20,230 nucleotides of DNA from a virus. The position numbers and the translations under genes were made by a program. The notes beneath the pieces were generated by a model. That model was not told the origin of the DNA. It did not search any database and was given only the letters and a program-made list of their open reading frames with translations. Below, one piece after another: positions 4,573-20,230 of this stretch (the stretch's first letter is position 1; every line of letters starts with the position of its first letter). Where the stretch lies: positions 1 through 20,230 of IMG/VR virus record IMGVR_UViG_3300042506_000065. One strand, given 5' to 3'.

Positions 4573-5010
4573 ATGAAAACATCATTCCATAAATTCATGG
4601 CATCAAACGCCGTTAACAAAGTTGAGTTATCAAAAAACGAATTGATCCAAGTGCAAATGGGTGCAAAGGAAGATTTGATTAAGTTGATTGGACAAGCGGG
4701 AAAATTAGTTGGCCCCGCCCGTAAATTGGAAGATGCGACAAGCAAATTCGCGGACCAAATCAACACATTGAAAAAACAGGTTCCCGATTACATCGCAAAG
4801 AATAAAGACATGGCCGCACAATTGGCATCGTTGGATTCTCAAATCAAAAGTGGTTACGATAAATTCCAAGCACAATTAAAAGCGTTGGGTGTTCCAAAAG
4901 ATGCGGTTGCCGATTTAGAAGCAGCAATTAAAACTTTGGATGGCAATGATTTTTACCCATTGCAAAGGGATTTGACTTTTAACACCACTTATTTGGATAA
5001 GTTGAAATAA
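4573..5010 (+). CDS. Hypothetical coiled-coil phage protein (145 aa)
   Basis: No family is recognised. The product is Lys/Ala/Leu-rich and almost entirely helical, with coiled-coil-like stretches at about residues 30-75 and 80-120, and no signal peptide or transmembrane helix. It follows the tape measure by 17 bases, and its TAA shares the last A with the ATG of the protease gene (TAATG), suggesting coupled translation. Its place between tape measure and head-maturation genes suggests a virion or assembly role, such as an assembly chaperone or scaffold helper, but the sequence does not prove this. The start context is GATAATATG, matching the A/T-rich starts of neighbouring genes. Confidence 0.75.
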   Translation: MKTSFHKFMASNAVNKVELSKNELIQVQMGAKEDLIKLIGQAGKLVGPARKLEDATSKFADQINTLKKQVPDYIAKNKDMAAQLASLDSQIKSGYDKFQAQLKALGVPKDAVADLEAAIKTLDGNDFYPLQRDLTFNTTYLDKLK

Positions 5011-5627
5011 TGAGAATTGTTGAACTGATATTGGATGACCAACAATTGGCAAGTGGCATTGATGCAATAAGCATTGTGGAAGCCCCCGCCATTGAATCCA
5101 ATTTCATTGCATTGAAATCACATGAAATAAAGTTTGCCCAAGTGGATGCCGAAAAACGCATCTTGATGGGTCCTGTTCTTATTCCCGACAAACCCATTTA
5201 TCGCAAACAAATGATGAATGGTGAAATGCAAGAATTTTATGTTTACTTTTCAAAGAACACCGTATCCCGTGCATCGCAAATGTTTTTGATGAAGGGTAAC
5301 CAAGGCAAAGCCACATTGGAACACGACATGGCGTTGCAAGGTATTTGCATGGTGGAATCTTGGATTAAGGAGGACATGGAAAAAGACAAGTCGGCCATTT
5401 ATGGTATGAACGATCCGATTGGAACTTGGATGGGGTCATTAAAGGTTACCAACGATGAGATTTGGAACGACTATGTTAAAACGGGTCGTGTTAAAGGATT
5501 CAGCATCGAAGGGTATTTTGCGGATAGGTCAATGCCATTGTCAAAGGTTCAAACCGATGATGAAAAGTTAGCCAAGGTAATTGACATCCTTACCGAATTT
5601 CAAAAATCAAACAAAGTAAACAATTAA
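5010..5627 (+). CDS. Prohead maturation protease, XkdF-like
   Basis: At 205 residues, it resembles the XkdF-like phage serine protease family, which cleaves scaffold and capsid proteins during head maturation. Visible signatures are GPVLIPDKPIYR at about 54-65, EFYVYFSKNTV at about 75-85, TLEH with candidate catalytic His105, VESWIKEDMEKDKS at about 115-128, YGMNDPIGTWMGSLKV at about 131-146, and VKGFSIEG with candidate nucleophile Ser165. The N-terminal VELILDD and SIVEAPAIESNFIAL blocks are also typical. It is directly followed by a scaffold-like gene and the major capsid gene, the expected order for a protease-scaffold-capsid module. The ATG overlaps the preceding stop by one base. Confidence 0.88.
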   Translation: MRIVELILDDQQLASGIDAISIVEAPAIESNFIALKSHEIKFAQVDAEKRILMGPVLIPDKPIYRKQMMNGEMQEFYVYFSKNTVSRASQMFLMKGNQGKATLEHDMALQGICMVESWIKEDMEKDKSAIYGMNDPIGTWMGSLKVTNDEIWNDYVKTGRVKGFSIEGYFADRSMPLSKVQTDDEKLAKVIDILTEFQKSNKVNN

Positions 5628-5639
5628 AGTATTTTAGAT

Positions 5640-6275
5640 ATGAACGCAACCGAAACATTAAACCGCGTATTGGCAACTTTGGGATTAAAGCCCGAGGAAG
5701 CGATTGTGGTTGATTTGGCACAAGTTAAGACCGAGGATGGTCAAGCCACATTTGAATCAGACAATTTCGCCGTGGGTGAAGCGGTATTTATCGTTACTCC
5801 CGATGGTAACATCCCAACACCAGAAGGTGAATTTGCATTGGAAAACGGAAATGTAATGACCGTGGATGCAAATGGTACTATCGTTGAAATCGCAACCAAG
5901 GAGGAAGAAGCCCCCGAGGAAGAAATCATCGAGGAAGTTGAAGCCGAAGACCAACCAATGAAAGAGCAAATTGGCGATATGCCAATGGCAAAGAAGGTGG
6001 TTAAAAGCAAAACCGAAATGGAAGAATCTTATTTTAGCAAACAGATGAGCGAATTGGAAGCCAAGTTTGAAGCCCGTTTATCAGCATTGGAAGGCGAGAA
6101 AATCGCATTGAGTGCCGAGAACAAAGAATTGACAGAGAGATTGGCTAACGAACCAGCACCACACACATTGCACAACCCAGAGGCAAACATGAAGGATTCC
6201 AAGTTGATTTTCAAGTTGGGTGCCAAGCGTGAGGAAACTTTGAAGGATCGTGTATTTAATCAACTTTTTAACTAA
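5640..6275 (+). CDS. Putative capsid scaffolding protein
   Basis: At 211 residues, it sits between the protease and the major capsid protein, the usual place of a scaffold. The N-terminal half (about 1-85) looks beta-rich with repeated Gly/Pro/Asp turns (TPDGNIPTPEGEF). A strongly acidic run of Glu residues covers about 87-104. A coiled coil follows at about 126-170 (MSELEAKFEARLSALEGEKIAL), then a basic C-terminal tail (LIFKLGAKREETLKDRVFNQLF) that could bind capsid subunits. Scaffolds have little sequence conservation, so the assignment rests on position, acidity and the coiled coil. The start has the AGATATG context seen at several other genes here. A minor head protein is the main alternative. 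Confidence 0.68.
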   Translation: MNATETLNRVLATLGLKPEEAIVVDLAQVKTEDGQATFESDNFAVGEAVFIVTPDGNIPTPEGEFALENGNVMTVDANGTIVEIATKEEEAPEEEIIEEVEAEDQPMKEQIGDMPMAKKVVKSKTEMEESYFSKQMSELEAKFEARLSALEGEKIALSAENKELTERLANEPAPHTLHNPEANMKDSKLIFKLGAKREETLKDRVFNQLFN

Positions 6276-7963: not shown

Positions 7964-8305
7964 ATGCACATCAATAACGCATCCACCAATATCAATTTCA
8001 CATCGTTTGTGGAATTTACGGGTGTATCAACGATTGAGGTGTGGCACAAGCCCACCAAAACGATGGTGACGGCCACAAGTACCCCAAGCAAGTTGTATTC
8101 GTTCTACACGATGAATTTGCCATCATTAACCGCCATCAATGCGGTTGCACAAAACACCGATGAGATATTAATTCGTGTATTCAACGCAAATAATTTGGTG
8201 TGGGAGTATTTAGGGTATTGGATTGTGGGAACAACCAACATTAACAACACTTGGAAACAATGGGATACAACGGCCCCCGTTTCACCTAATTGGATAACAC
8301 TATGA
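7964..8305 (+). CDS. Hypothetical beta-rich phage protein (113 aa)
   Basis: No family is recognised. The product (MHINNASTNINFTSFVEFTGVSTIEVWHKPTKTM at the start) is rich in Thr, Asn and aromatic residues and looks like alternating beta strands, with no signal peptide or transmembrane helix. Repeated TNIN-type segments occur at both ends (STNINF near the start, TTNINNTW near the end). It follows a terminator by 38 bases, and its TGA overlaps the ATG of the portal gene (ATGA), so the two are probably co-translated. That context suggests a virion or connector protein, but function is not shown by sequence. The ATG at 7964 is the first start after the terminator. Confidence 0.72.
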   Translation: MHINNASTNINFTSFVEFTGVSTIEVWHKPTKTMVTATSTPSKLYSFYTMNLPSLTAINAVAQNTDEILIRVFNANNLVWEYLGYWIVGTTNINNTWKQWDTTAPVSPNWITL

Positions 8306-10083
8306 GTTTAGAATTTATACAACTACAATCGTATACGGCCCCATCCATCATTGAGCAAAAAAACAAAGATTGGGTGCAATATGGTGACGATAACAATTAT
8401 TATCAGTATTTGATTGACTTGTATCATGGTTCACCAACCAATAATGCGTGTATCAAAGGAATTGCAGACCAAATTTATGGCAAGGGATTAGAGGTGACAA
8501 CAACATCGCGCGATTTACCAGGTTACATTGAGTTCAAAAAGATGTTTAGTGGGGATGATTTACGCGCGGTAATTATGGATTTGAAGATGTTGGGCCAAGC
8601 ATCGTTTCAACTAATCAAATCAAAGGATAAGAAAAAGTATATTCAAGCCAAGCACTTTCCACAACAAACACTTCGCCCCGCCAAGTGCAACGACAAAGGC
8701 GAGATTGAAAAGTATTATTATTACCCCGATTGGGCCAATATCAAGCGTGGCACACAACCAACAGAGATAAGGGCATGGGGTTACGACCAAAACGCGAACG
8801 AATGTATACTAACCATCAAACCATATTCAACGGGTTCGTTCTACTTCGCACCCGTGGACTACCAAGGAGGTACGCAATATGCAAACTTGGAGTCGGAGAT
8901 ATCAAATTTCCACATCAACAACATCATGAATGGTCTTGCACCAAGTATGTTGATAAACTTCAACAATGGGCAACCACCCGCCGAGGTTAAAGATACGGTT
9001 GAATCACAAATCAAAGCCAAGTTTGGTGGATCGTCAAATGCAGGTCGTTTTATTATCAGTTGGAACGATGGCAAGGATTCAGCGGCGGACATCACCCCAG
9101 TACAATTAAGTGATGCCCACAACCAATATCAATTCCTAAGTTCGGAATCAATGCAAAAGGTTATGATATCGCATCGCGTGGTATCGCCGTTGTTATTGGG
9201 TATTAAAGACGGAACGGGATTTGGTAATAACGCGGATGAATTAAAGTCGGCATCTATTTTGTTTGACAATGTTGTTATTCGCCCATTCCAAAGATTGGTT
9301 ATTGATGCAGTTACTAAGGTATTGAACCACAATGGTTATAACCTTAATATGTATTTCAAGACCTTACAACCACTTGAATTTACGGATTTGACGGGTAATG
9401 TAATTGACGATGAAACACGCGAAGAAGAAACGGGCGTATCGTTGTCATTAAAAAAAAAGATTGATTTAGCGGACATGACCATCGCGGATGAAGATTCGTG
9501 GTTGGAACATTTGAAATCCCGTGGGGAAATAATTAACAATGAGGTGTGGGAACTCATTGATGTAACCGAGGTTACGGATGCGGATGAGGAAATGAAATTT
9601 GAAATGGCGTATGAAAACCCCAATAAAAAAAGTGGTGATGATAAAGGGGTTTACAAAATCCGTTATCGGTACGGCCCTAATATCGTGGCCGACAATTCAA
9701 GGCAGTTTTGTAGTACAATGGTTCAAGAATCCAAAGGGGGAGTAATTTATCGCCGTGAAGATATTTTGACAATGGGTGATGCGGGTGTCAACGGACAATT
9801 TGCACCAAGCGGACAAAGTTCATATTCCATTTGGAAGTACAAGGGCGGTGTTAATTGCCACCACCGATGGGAACGATTGACATTCAGACGGAAGCAAATC
9901 AAAGGTAAATTTTTACCTAAGCAACCAGGCGAAAGCGGTGAGAATCGCGATTTAGAAAATTACAACGAAGTATCAAATAAGAGTGCCAACAATGCGGGAG
10001 TTCCATTTTCACCAAGTGGATGGGAAACGGCATCAACACGCCCAATTGATATGCCAAACAAAGGAAGTTTAAAGAACAAATAA
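8302..10083 (+). CDS. Portal protein with C-terminal MuF-like Cys/His extension
   Basis: At 593 residues from ATG 8302, which forms an ATGA overlap with the upstream stop (an in-frame TTG at 8290 is less likely). The first ~390 residues look like a portal: WVQYGDDNNYYQYLIDLYHGSPTNNACI near the start, a GSSNAGRFIISW block, and VMISHRVVSPLLLGIKDGTGFGNNADELKSA around 290-320, which is the conserved portal clip/stem region in siphophages. The portal is the ring at the unique vertex through which DNA enters and leaves. After a hinge rich in Asp/Glu, residues about 450-530 form a second unit: RYRYGPNIVADNSRQFC with Cys470, then YKGGVNCHHRW with Cys519, His520 and His521. This layout resembles the C-terminal domain of MuF-type minor head proteins. 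No separate MuF gene is seen, so a fusion is likely. Confidence 0.85.
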   Translation: MSLEFIQLQSYTAPSIIEQKNKDWVQYGDDNNYYQYLIDLYHGSPTNNACIKGIADQIYGKGLEVTTTSRDLPGYIEFKKMFSGDDLRAVIMDLKMLGQASFQLIKSKDKKKYIQAKHFPQQTLRPAKCNDKGEIEKYYYYPDWANIKRGTQPTEIRAWGYDQNANECILTIKPYSTGSFYFAPVDYQGGTQYANLESEISNFHINNIMNGLAPSMLINFNNGQPPAEVKDTVESQIKAKFGGSSNAGRFIISWNDGKDSAADITPVQLSDAHNQYQFLSSESMQKVMISHRVVSPLLLGIKDGTGFGNNADELKSASILFDNVVIRPFQRLVIDAVTKVLNHNGYNLNMYFKTLQPLEFTDLTGNVIDDETREEETGVSLSLKKKIDLADMTIADEDSWLEHLKSRGEIINNEVWELIDVTEVTDADEEMKFEMAYENPNKKSGDDKGVYKIRYRYGPNIVADNSRQFCSTMVQESKGGVIYRREDILTMGDAGVNGQFAPSGQSSYSIWKYKGGVNCHHRWERLTFRRKQIKGKFLPKQPGESGENRDLENYNEVSNKSANNAGVPFSPSGWETASTRPIDMPNKGSLKNK

Positions 10084-10084
10084 G

Positions 10085-10597
10085 ATGTACGCAAACGATG
10101 ATGTATTATTAATCACCAAGGAGGACATATTCAAATACACCCAATTGAGTGGGAATTTTGATGTGGATAAAATCACCCCATTTATTAAGATAGCCCAGGA
10201 CATCCAAGTTCAAGAATTATGCGGTACTGTTTTGTATCGTAAATTGTTGGATGATGTTCAGTCAAGCACATTGGCGGGGTATTATCTTTTGTTGGTGTCA
10301 CACTATTTGCAACCTTTGTTGATCCATTACGCGATGAGTGATTTGTTGTTATTCCACGGGTATGAGGTAACCAATGCGGGTATCGTTCGTAATTCACCCG
10401 AGAATACACAGTTACCAAGCAAGGAGGAATTGGACACGATTGTCCAAAGACAAAGAAACATTGCAGAAACTTATCGGAGGCGTTGCGTGGATTACCTATC
10501 GTATTTCCCACAGAGGTACCCAGAATACACGGCCAACCAAGAAGCGGGAGAATACCCAAATTCAAATCCATCGAATTATGTAACATGGAATTTGTAA
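10085..10597 (+). CDS. Putative head-tail adaptor / connector protein (DUF6712-like)
   Basis: At 170 residues, it is mainly helical. The N-terminus (LLITKEDIFKYTQLSGNFDVDKITPFIKIAQDIQVQELCGTVLYRKLLDDV) matches what I recall of small proteins that follow the portal in Bacteroidota phages and are annotated DUF6712; they resemble helical head-tail adaptors such as gp6/gp15 types. The central helix has a hydrophobic face (YYLLLVSHYLQPLLIHYAMSDLLLFHG), probably a ring interface rather than a membrane helix. It starts one base after the portal stop, supporting a connector role. The end is polar and Asn/Tyr/Pro-rich. The position is strong evidence; the domain name is from memory and should be treated as probable. 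Confidence 0.65.
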   Translation: MYANDDVLLITKEDIFKYTQLSGNFDVDKITPFIKIAQDIQVQELCGTVLYRKLLDDVQSSTLAGYYLLLVSHYLQPLLIHYAMSDLLLFHGYEVTNAGIVRNSPENTQLPSKEELDTIVQRQRNIAETYRRRCVDYLSYFPQRYPEYTANQEAGEYPNSNPSNYVTWNL

Positions 10598-20194: not shown

Positions 20195-20230
20195 ATGAAA
20201 ATGGATATTAAACAAACGGTGATTGACTTA
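20195..20230 (+). CDS. Start of a gene cut by the right edge
   Basis: An ATG at 20195 opens a frame of 12 codons (MKMDIKQTVIDL) that runs off the window. It follows the DnaB gene by 30 bases and has a promoter-like sequence just upstream; the ATG at 20201 is an alternative start. Too little is visible to name it. Confidence 0.5.
   Translation, partial: MKMDIKQTVIDL

Follow-up and report, generated by a model that had tools for sequence, protein, structure and literature searches.

The portal protein encoded in the viral DNA analysed here probably has, built into its C terminus, a minimal domain of MuF type that represents the Cys/His half of MuF and replaces a separate MuF protein. The DNA, referred to below as the window, is the stretch from position 1 to position 20,230 of the IMG/VR record IMGVR_UViG_3300042506_000065. 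Residues are numbered from the ATG at 8302 (593 aa); the list of open reading frames starts instead at a TTG at 8290, four codons earlier (597 aa). The features discussed are as follows.

5010..5627, + strand: XkdF-type head maturation protease (context; PF14550, E 4e-13)
8302..10083, + strand: portal gene, 593 aa, stop included (PHROG 33693 portal, residues 4-534, E 4e-101)
8302..9492, + strand: portal body, residues ~1-397, delimited by VIA-align to solved portals
9493..9642, + strand: linker region, residues ~398-447 (pLDDT <50 at residues 382-390 and 434-440)
9643..9897, + strand: MuF-like Cys/His domain, residues 448-532 (85 residues), from the alignment of domain sequences (A8), a separate AlphaFold2 model and profile links
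9700..9711, + strand: first half of the signature, R467-Q-F-C470 (R and C in 81/81 sequences)
9856..9864, + strand: second half of the signature, C519-H-H521 (C519 and H521 in 81/81; H520 variable)
9898..10080, + strand: C-terminal tail, residues 533-593 (61 residues), with a P-x-D-M-P motif and without a Pfam match
10085..10597, + strand: DUF6712 protein (context; PF20459, E 4e-21)

Architecture of the portal protein

An AlphaFold2 model of the full portal (mean pLDDT 76.9; input alignment of 55 full-length sequences) was aligned to solved portals with VIA-align. GTA portal 6toa was the best match (Z 21.1, rmsd 6.8, 314 residues), and HK97 portal 8cez was also matched (Z 17.9, rmsd 4.9, 314 residues). 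By the fold of this model, the window portal is of the HK97/GTA type. The Pfam model PF04860 (Phage_portal) scores the window protein at 19.6 bits, below its cut-off of 39.1. Alignments to solved portals cover residues ~7-397, with at least one fifth of the rows spanning the whole range. Elsewhere in the head gene region, the gene that follows the protease (5640-6275) matches the second half of PHROG 24921 and the protease matches its first half; the two correspond to a pair that is fused in other phages.

Two segments of the model, residues 382-390 and 434-440, have pLDDT <50, and both lie N-terminal to the Cys/His domain; two helices and one strand are predicted for residues 394-431. When residues 438-543 were modelled alone from an 81-sequence alignment, AlphaFold2 returned a pLDDT of 84.1 and a pTM of 0.73, with the modelled order strand 451-458, helix 468-478, helix 485-493, short helix 510-513 and strand 522-529. 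As modelled, the Cys/His domain is a distinct unit that folds separately from the portal body. Its modelled and aligned extent, residues 448-532, bears out the first-pass annotation, which had placed it after the portal body at about residues 450-530 and had read there two motifs that are present as written, Y455-R-Y457-x8-S466-R467-x-F469-C470 and G515-G-V-N-C519-H520-H521-R-W523. The structure prediction that it had proposed for this segment yielded a separate domain but no matching fold in the PDB, where Foldseek returned one match at E 9.9 and VIA-align none at Z >=2. A Foldseek search of BFVD with the domain model returned portal, XkdF and unnamed proteins, together with a weak match to the GpF-like protein R4TMK8 of a halovirus (E 8.7, TM 0.40).

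In the tail, the P-x-D-M-P motif near the portal end (window 10020-10080) recurs in 198 of the 284 domain-bearing ORFs, among the matches listed, that end at a natural stop. It is possibly a docking peptide or a cleavage signal.

Conservation of the Cys/His signature

Across 81 non-redundant domain sequences, window included (alignment A8), the residues R454, Y455, Y457, R467, F469, C470, M473, N497, K514, G515, G516, C519 and H521 are invariant. A sample of 65 domain-bearing loci chosen by the portal body gave the same picture, R467 and C470 being present in 65/65 and C519 and H521 in 64/65 (one gap). Conservation in both samples argues that the signature residues are not there by chance. The proposed signature had comprised Cys470, Cys519, His520 and His521; it survives in Cys470, Cys519 and His521 but not in His520, which is a histidine in just 45 of the 81 sequences and in 25 of the 65 body-chosen loci. 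His520 was rejected as a ligand on account of this variability.

In another alignment (A4), 19 of the 26 invariant columns fall at residue 447 or beyond. This extra conservation of the domain is a retrieval effect, since the motif of the domain itself had served to retrieve the 54 relatives in A4. We accordingly rejected the idea of a domain better conserved than the portal body: among the 65 body-chosen loci, mean pairwise identity is 0.52 for the domain versus 0.73 for the body.

Relationship to MuF proteins

Pfam, NCBIfam and PDB sequence searches with the domain gave no significant match, one of them returning just chance matches (E >=0.33). The curated cut-offs of PF04233 and PF06152 were reached neither by the window protein nor by the 12 members of alignment A3 (window included). 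Direct hhalign comparison of the domain gave 7% over 8 columns only with MuF2 and 0.06%, out of register, with MuF1.

MuF1 and MuF2 are treated as one superfamily in PMC5576092. A signature of the form R-x-x-[C/H] ... C-x-[H/C] is common to the domain (81/81) and the MuF families. In a set of ten MuF2 sequences, R occurs in 7, C or H in 10, C in 10, and H or C in 10; the corresponding counts for ten MuF1 sequences are R in 9, H or C in 10, C in 10, and C in 9. The ligand-like positions read C/C/H in the domain, mostly C/C/H in MuF2 and mostly H/C/C in MuF1. Two of these three positions are occupied by either Cys or His across the superfamily, as metal ligands would permit. As for the spacing, which had been described as MuF-like, it is identical within each half (R-x-x-C and C-x-H), but the halves themselves lie further apart than in Mu. 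C470 and C519 are separated by 49 residues, whereas the equivalent distance is 26 residues in phage Mu (158 to 184) and, in Listeria phage A118, 45 (238 to 283).

Stand-alone proteins provide the connection. A set of 395 genomes, all from the phylum to which the Galbibacter locus belongs, contained 7 with a domain-profile match at E <=0.01, one being the Galbibacter genome itself. Four of the six weak-match genomes (L329-L332), found with the domain's own profile, encode stand-alone proteins with R-x-F-C ... GG-x-x-C-x-H-x-W; in L333 and L334, short frames matched the second half only. One of the stand-alone MuF-like proteins (L332:988-1974, - strand) carries a C-terminal CdiA_C domain (E 3e-7), and some MuF toxins likewise carry toxin domains.

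A tblastn search with the L331 and L332 proteins led to the Pelagibacter phages HTVC111P, HTVC112P, HTVC202P and HTVC026P. All four cultured phages have the stand-alone gene between the portal and scaffold genes, directly so in HTVC112P, with one opposite-strand gene between portal and stand-alone gene in HTVC111P and HTVC202P, and with one small gene between stand-alone gene and scaffold in HTVC026P. Compared with the sister proteins, HTVC026P gp30 (L339:868-2694) has ~270 additional residues, which include an H-E-x-x-H motif. Against the domain profile, the L329-L332 and four Pelagibacter proteins score between 13.5 and 22.8 bits, compared with a maximum of 9.8 bits among 12,797 reversed ORFs, and hhalign of the domain with the four Pelagibacter proteins alone gives 93.2% (E 3e-7). 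These four alone gave just 19.2% against MuF2.

A scan of viral contigs with the stand-alone sequences (A9) found 516 relatives among 600 pattern matches, and the best 80 of the 516 supplied 29 non-redundant full stand-alone proteins (alignment A10). The signature R, C and C-R-H are invariant in these 29 proteins; the main figures use the alignment uncropped, cropping having removed the signature from 10 of the 29 sequences. At E <=0.1, Pfam searches matched PF06152 in 7 of the 29 (best 3.8e-4) and PF04233 in 2 (best 2.3e-3); one of the 29 also matched a metallopeptidase-type Pfam family. With hhalign, the domain aligns to A10 at 97.0% (E 1e-10, 61 columns, score 74.3), and A10 aligns to MuF2 (Phage_min_cap2) at 97.3% (E 3e-11, 160 columns, score 93.1) and to MuF1 at 27.6% (154 columns, score 35.7), an alignment that keeps the first signature half in register. 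None of the column-shuffled decoys for the three comparisons (80, 40 and 80) scored above 23.9. A pooled profile of the domain and the intermediates did worse than the intermediates alone (MuF2 9.2%, MuF1 0.2%). In the reverse search, the A10 profile matched the domain within the portal frame in six of 16 records (E 5e-10 to 2e-7), including Nonlabens phage P12024S (E 2e-7), and missed the window's own domain and nine others of the 16 at E 0.01.

These profile comparisons support a relationship of the domain to MuF through intermediate proteins, on which the link rests. The profile search proposed in the first-pass annotation thus produced no significant direct match to MuF but did link the domain to it by this chain, and the claim that the portal is fused to a MuF-like domain gains support in the same indirect way. 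The match to the MuF-linked proteins covers the Cys/His half only (61 columns) and does not extend into the helical N-terminal half of MuF; ahead of the domain, two helices and a strand are predicted at residues 394-431. The counterpart of the domain in MuF proteins is this Cys/His half and not Pfam's MuF_C.

Distribution of the fusion

Each viral scan contributed the best 80 of 457 to 600 confirmed relatives, and loci from several scans can share one contig, so that the ORF counts below do not equal counts of independent contigs. In the first locus set, the domain profile found at least 229 ORFs, of which 193 have at least 380 residues before the domain. Among the matches listed, 34 of the other 36 start at a contig edge, the exceptions being L148 and L089. 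L148, a single case, begins 125 bases from the contig start, with the portal out of view. L089:4552-6402, from a metagenome bin, has an in-frame stop between portal and MuF-like domain and represents either a natural split or a broken gene. Neither of these two isolated cases was given weight. Adding the loci fetched by the portal body brought the total to at least 291 domain-bearing ORFs, of which 280, or 250 distinct sequences, also include a portal body. The fusion is one reading frame with the portal and recurs in many contigs.

The best 80 loci fetched by portal body alone comprise 65 with the domain in the same ORF, 12 without it and 3 cut by the contig end. The 12 are complete portals that stop after the body, and the domain profile finds nothing on that strand. 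In a midpoint-rooted tree, their three non-redundant representatives form one clade (support 1.0) nested in domain-bearing sequences, a placement that fits loss of the domain. Among 50,697 phage records, the sole tblastn matches at E <=0.01 were the cultured Nonlabens phages P12024S and P12024L; aligned to the window, the P12024S portal (gp06) carries the Cys/His domain.

No separate MuF gene was found in the window, P12024S or 14 related viral records, as had been asserted for the window: PF04233 and PF06152 each matched in 0 of these 16 records, with the control genomes positive. The domain profile matches once, and no more, in each of the 16 records, always within a portal frame of 564-735 aa, and the A10 profile finds no place outside the portal frame. 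The window's own lack of such a gene proves little because it is a 20,230-base fragment; P12024S, whose record of 35,700 bases is titled complete genome, is the better witness. A MuF protein is expected to be encoded right after the portal, and here the domain occupies that place in fused form, as the portal C terminus.

No Pfam domain, toxin or enzyme was detected in the 61 residues that follow the domain in the window, in agreement with the earlier remark that no enzymatic or toxin activity is visible. One of the 291 domain-bearing ORFs (L295), among the matches listed, has a tail longer than 68 aa. This portal runs 252 residues past the domain (L295:5633-6388), with no Pfam or PDB match in the extension, which to the eye gives the impression of resembling the acetyltransferase-like domains of phage polyvalent proteins.

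Interpretation and alternatives

We consider a MuF-type domain built into the portal the probable explanation. Portal subunits have their C-terminal end toward the inside of the capsid, so the domain would lie within the head, hanging there on a flexible linker. Fusion to the portal leads one to expect the domain once per subunit, giving perhaps ~12 copies that come with the ring itself, in contrast to SPP1 gp7, of which a few copies are recruited by binding. A metal ion, probably bound by Cys470, Cys519 and His521, would stabilise the short fold. SPP1 gp7 is described as being present in few copies, taken into the procapsid by the portal and dispensable, with only ~25% of virions infectious in its absence (PMC6316719). 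From this biology and the once-per-subunit fusion we infer that the portal has incorporated a MuF module which takes part in DNA handling or early infection; by analogy with gp7, the domain may help to hold or release DNA or act early in infection. Its absence from one clade suggests that it would be useful but dispensable.

A general head-assembly tether, moved between portal and XkdF protease genes and bringing proteins to the scaffold or portal, is an unlikely alternative, although descent from MuF may be real on this account too, with assembly as the present job. The BFVD fold matches include proteins named XkdF (A0A6J5M430, A0A6J5N616, A0A6J7WLI9, A0A6J5NSI2 and A0A6J5PSY8) as well as a portal, and the presence of the domain, by fold, in XkdF-named proteins leaves room for a general head-interior adaptor. 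The evidence for these XkdF fusions consists of database names and fold matches only, however, and none of the 291 domain-bearing ORFs, among the matches listed, also matched the protease queries; the stand-alone relatives in cultured Pelagibacter phages, moreover, sit between portal and scaffold. That the portal C-terminal region takes other modules also speaks for a tether: a second element, K-ext, occurs in the portal ORF in 35 of 280 loci and in the protease ORF in 9 of 280.

K-ext ('VGKxRAQQLA ... TIKRMxSYLSRAE ... WGGKAG') is a second mobile module, found behind the XkdF protease (L300:251-1162, L278:183-1184) or inside the portal ORF (L113, L107, L141 and L143). It has no Pfam match and matches PHROG 2859 at E 6e-12. 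The notion that K-ext on the protease and the domain on the portal are mutually exclusive was rejected, 9 loci having both.

It is quite improbable that the segment is an ordinary extension of the portal crown or barrel, with a Cys/His motif invented locally and without relation to MuF. PHROG 33693 does span residues 4-534, treating the domain as part of the portal family, and there is no Pfam match or significant direct profile match to MuF. A normal portal C terminus, which the first-pass annotation had named as the finding that would overturn it, is opposed by the solved portals, which align over ~7-397, and by the clade whose portals end there, seen as 12 complete relatives among the best 80 body-fetched loci; the profile link via stand-alone proteins is, in addition, far above decoys and runs in both directions. 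An injected enzyme or toxin delivered by the portal fusion is scarcely credible, for although fusions of MuF and portal proteins to effectors are described (PMC5512222, PMC5576092), a Porphyromonas phage has a chain with Portal_Mu, MuF and PBECR2, and L295 has 252 residues behind the domain, the window tail is 61 residues without a Pfam match and tails exceed 68 aa in 1 of 291 ORFs, that one extension having no Pfam or PDB match.

The built-in MuF-type domain also admits a wider reading, which we offer tentatively. In it, an unnamed branch of MuF, consisting of the Cys/His half only, would be built into a large lineage of Bacteroidota phage portals as a 12-fold metal-binding ring within the head, the module occurring also on the protease and sometimes with extra domains. 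If that were so, MuF modules would be exchangeable head-interior adaptors rather than one minor protein.

MuF proteins are widespread, and some bear toxins; the function of the MuF domain is stated to be unknown in a 2017 survey (PMC5576092). In a natural fusion, the portal determines where the domain sits and in what number, and sister phages that have or lack it offer a ready comparison for its role. The present assignment also suggests a likely identity for a conserved region in phage proteins whose present annotation is simply portal.

Comparison with known systems

In the open literature, searched by title and start of abstract and with subscription papers largely outside, no paper on this portal lineage was found, and the word MuF is absent from a paper on flavobacterial phages (PMC8776804). 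Effector domains fused to portals (PMC5512222) and MuF toxins of Bacteroides prophages (PMC11699363) are described. Fusion of portal and MuF is itself not new, since such fusions are published for Microbacterium phages of clusters EA3, EA5, EA8 and EB (PMC7302621), and the window fusion is a variant of this arrangement. The Microbacterium phages likewise have a MuF-like function fused to the portal in one gene. They infect Actinobacteria, however, the likeness is taken from their published description, and Pfam does not recognise the window domain as MuF. Porphyromonas phage006a_EM3, likewise a Bacteroidota phage, has portal and MuF in one chain in its 'portal' (BK068089.1, L231), but this is a Mu-type portal (PF06074) with a Pfam-recognised MuF and PBECR2 behind it, from which the window portal differs.

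Among separate genes, phage Mu gpF has the signature R-x-x-[C/H] ... C-x-[H/C] as in the window domain, and extends further on the N-terminal side, its Pfam match starting at residue 59. Both Mu gpF and SPP1 gp7 share with the window domain a partnership with the portal, although each is encoded apart from it, and the few copies of gp7 (PMC6316719) differ from the one per subunit expected of the fused domain. Pelagibacter phage HTVC112P gp30 and its relatives carry R-x-x-C ... GG-x-N-C-R-H-x-[WF] in a separate gene in the gap between portal and scaffold. The gp06 portal of Nonlabens phages P12024S and P12024L, annotated in the record as portal only, is a full-length homologue of the window protein with the same domain (34% identity by tblastn, 38% by MAFFT).
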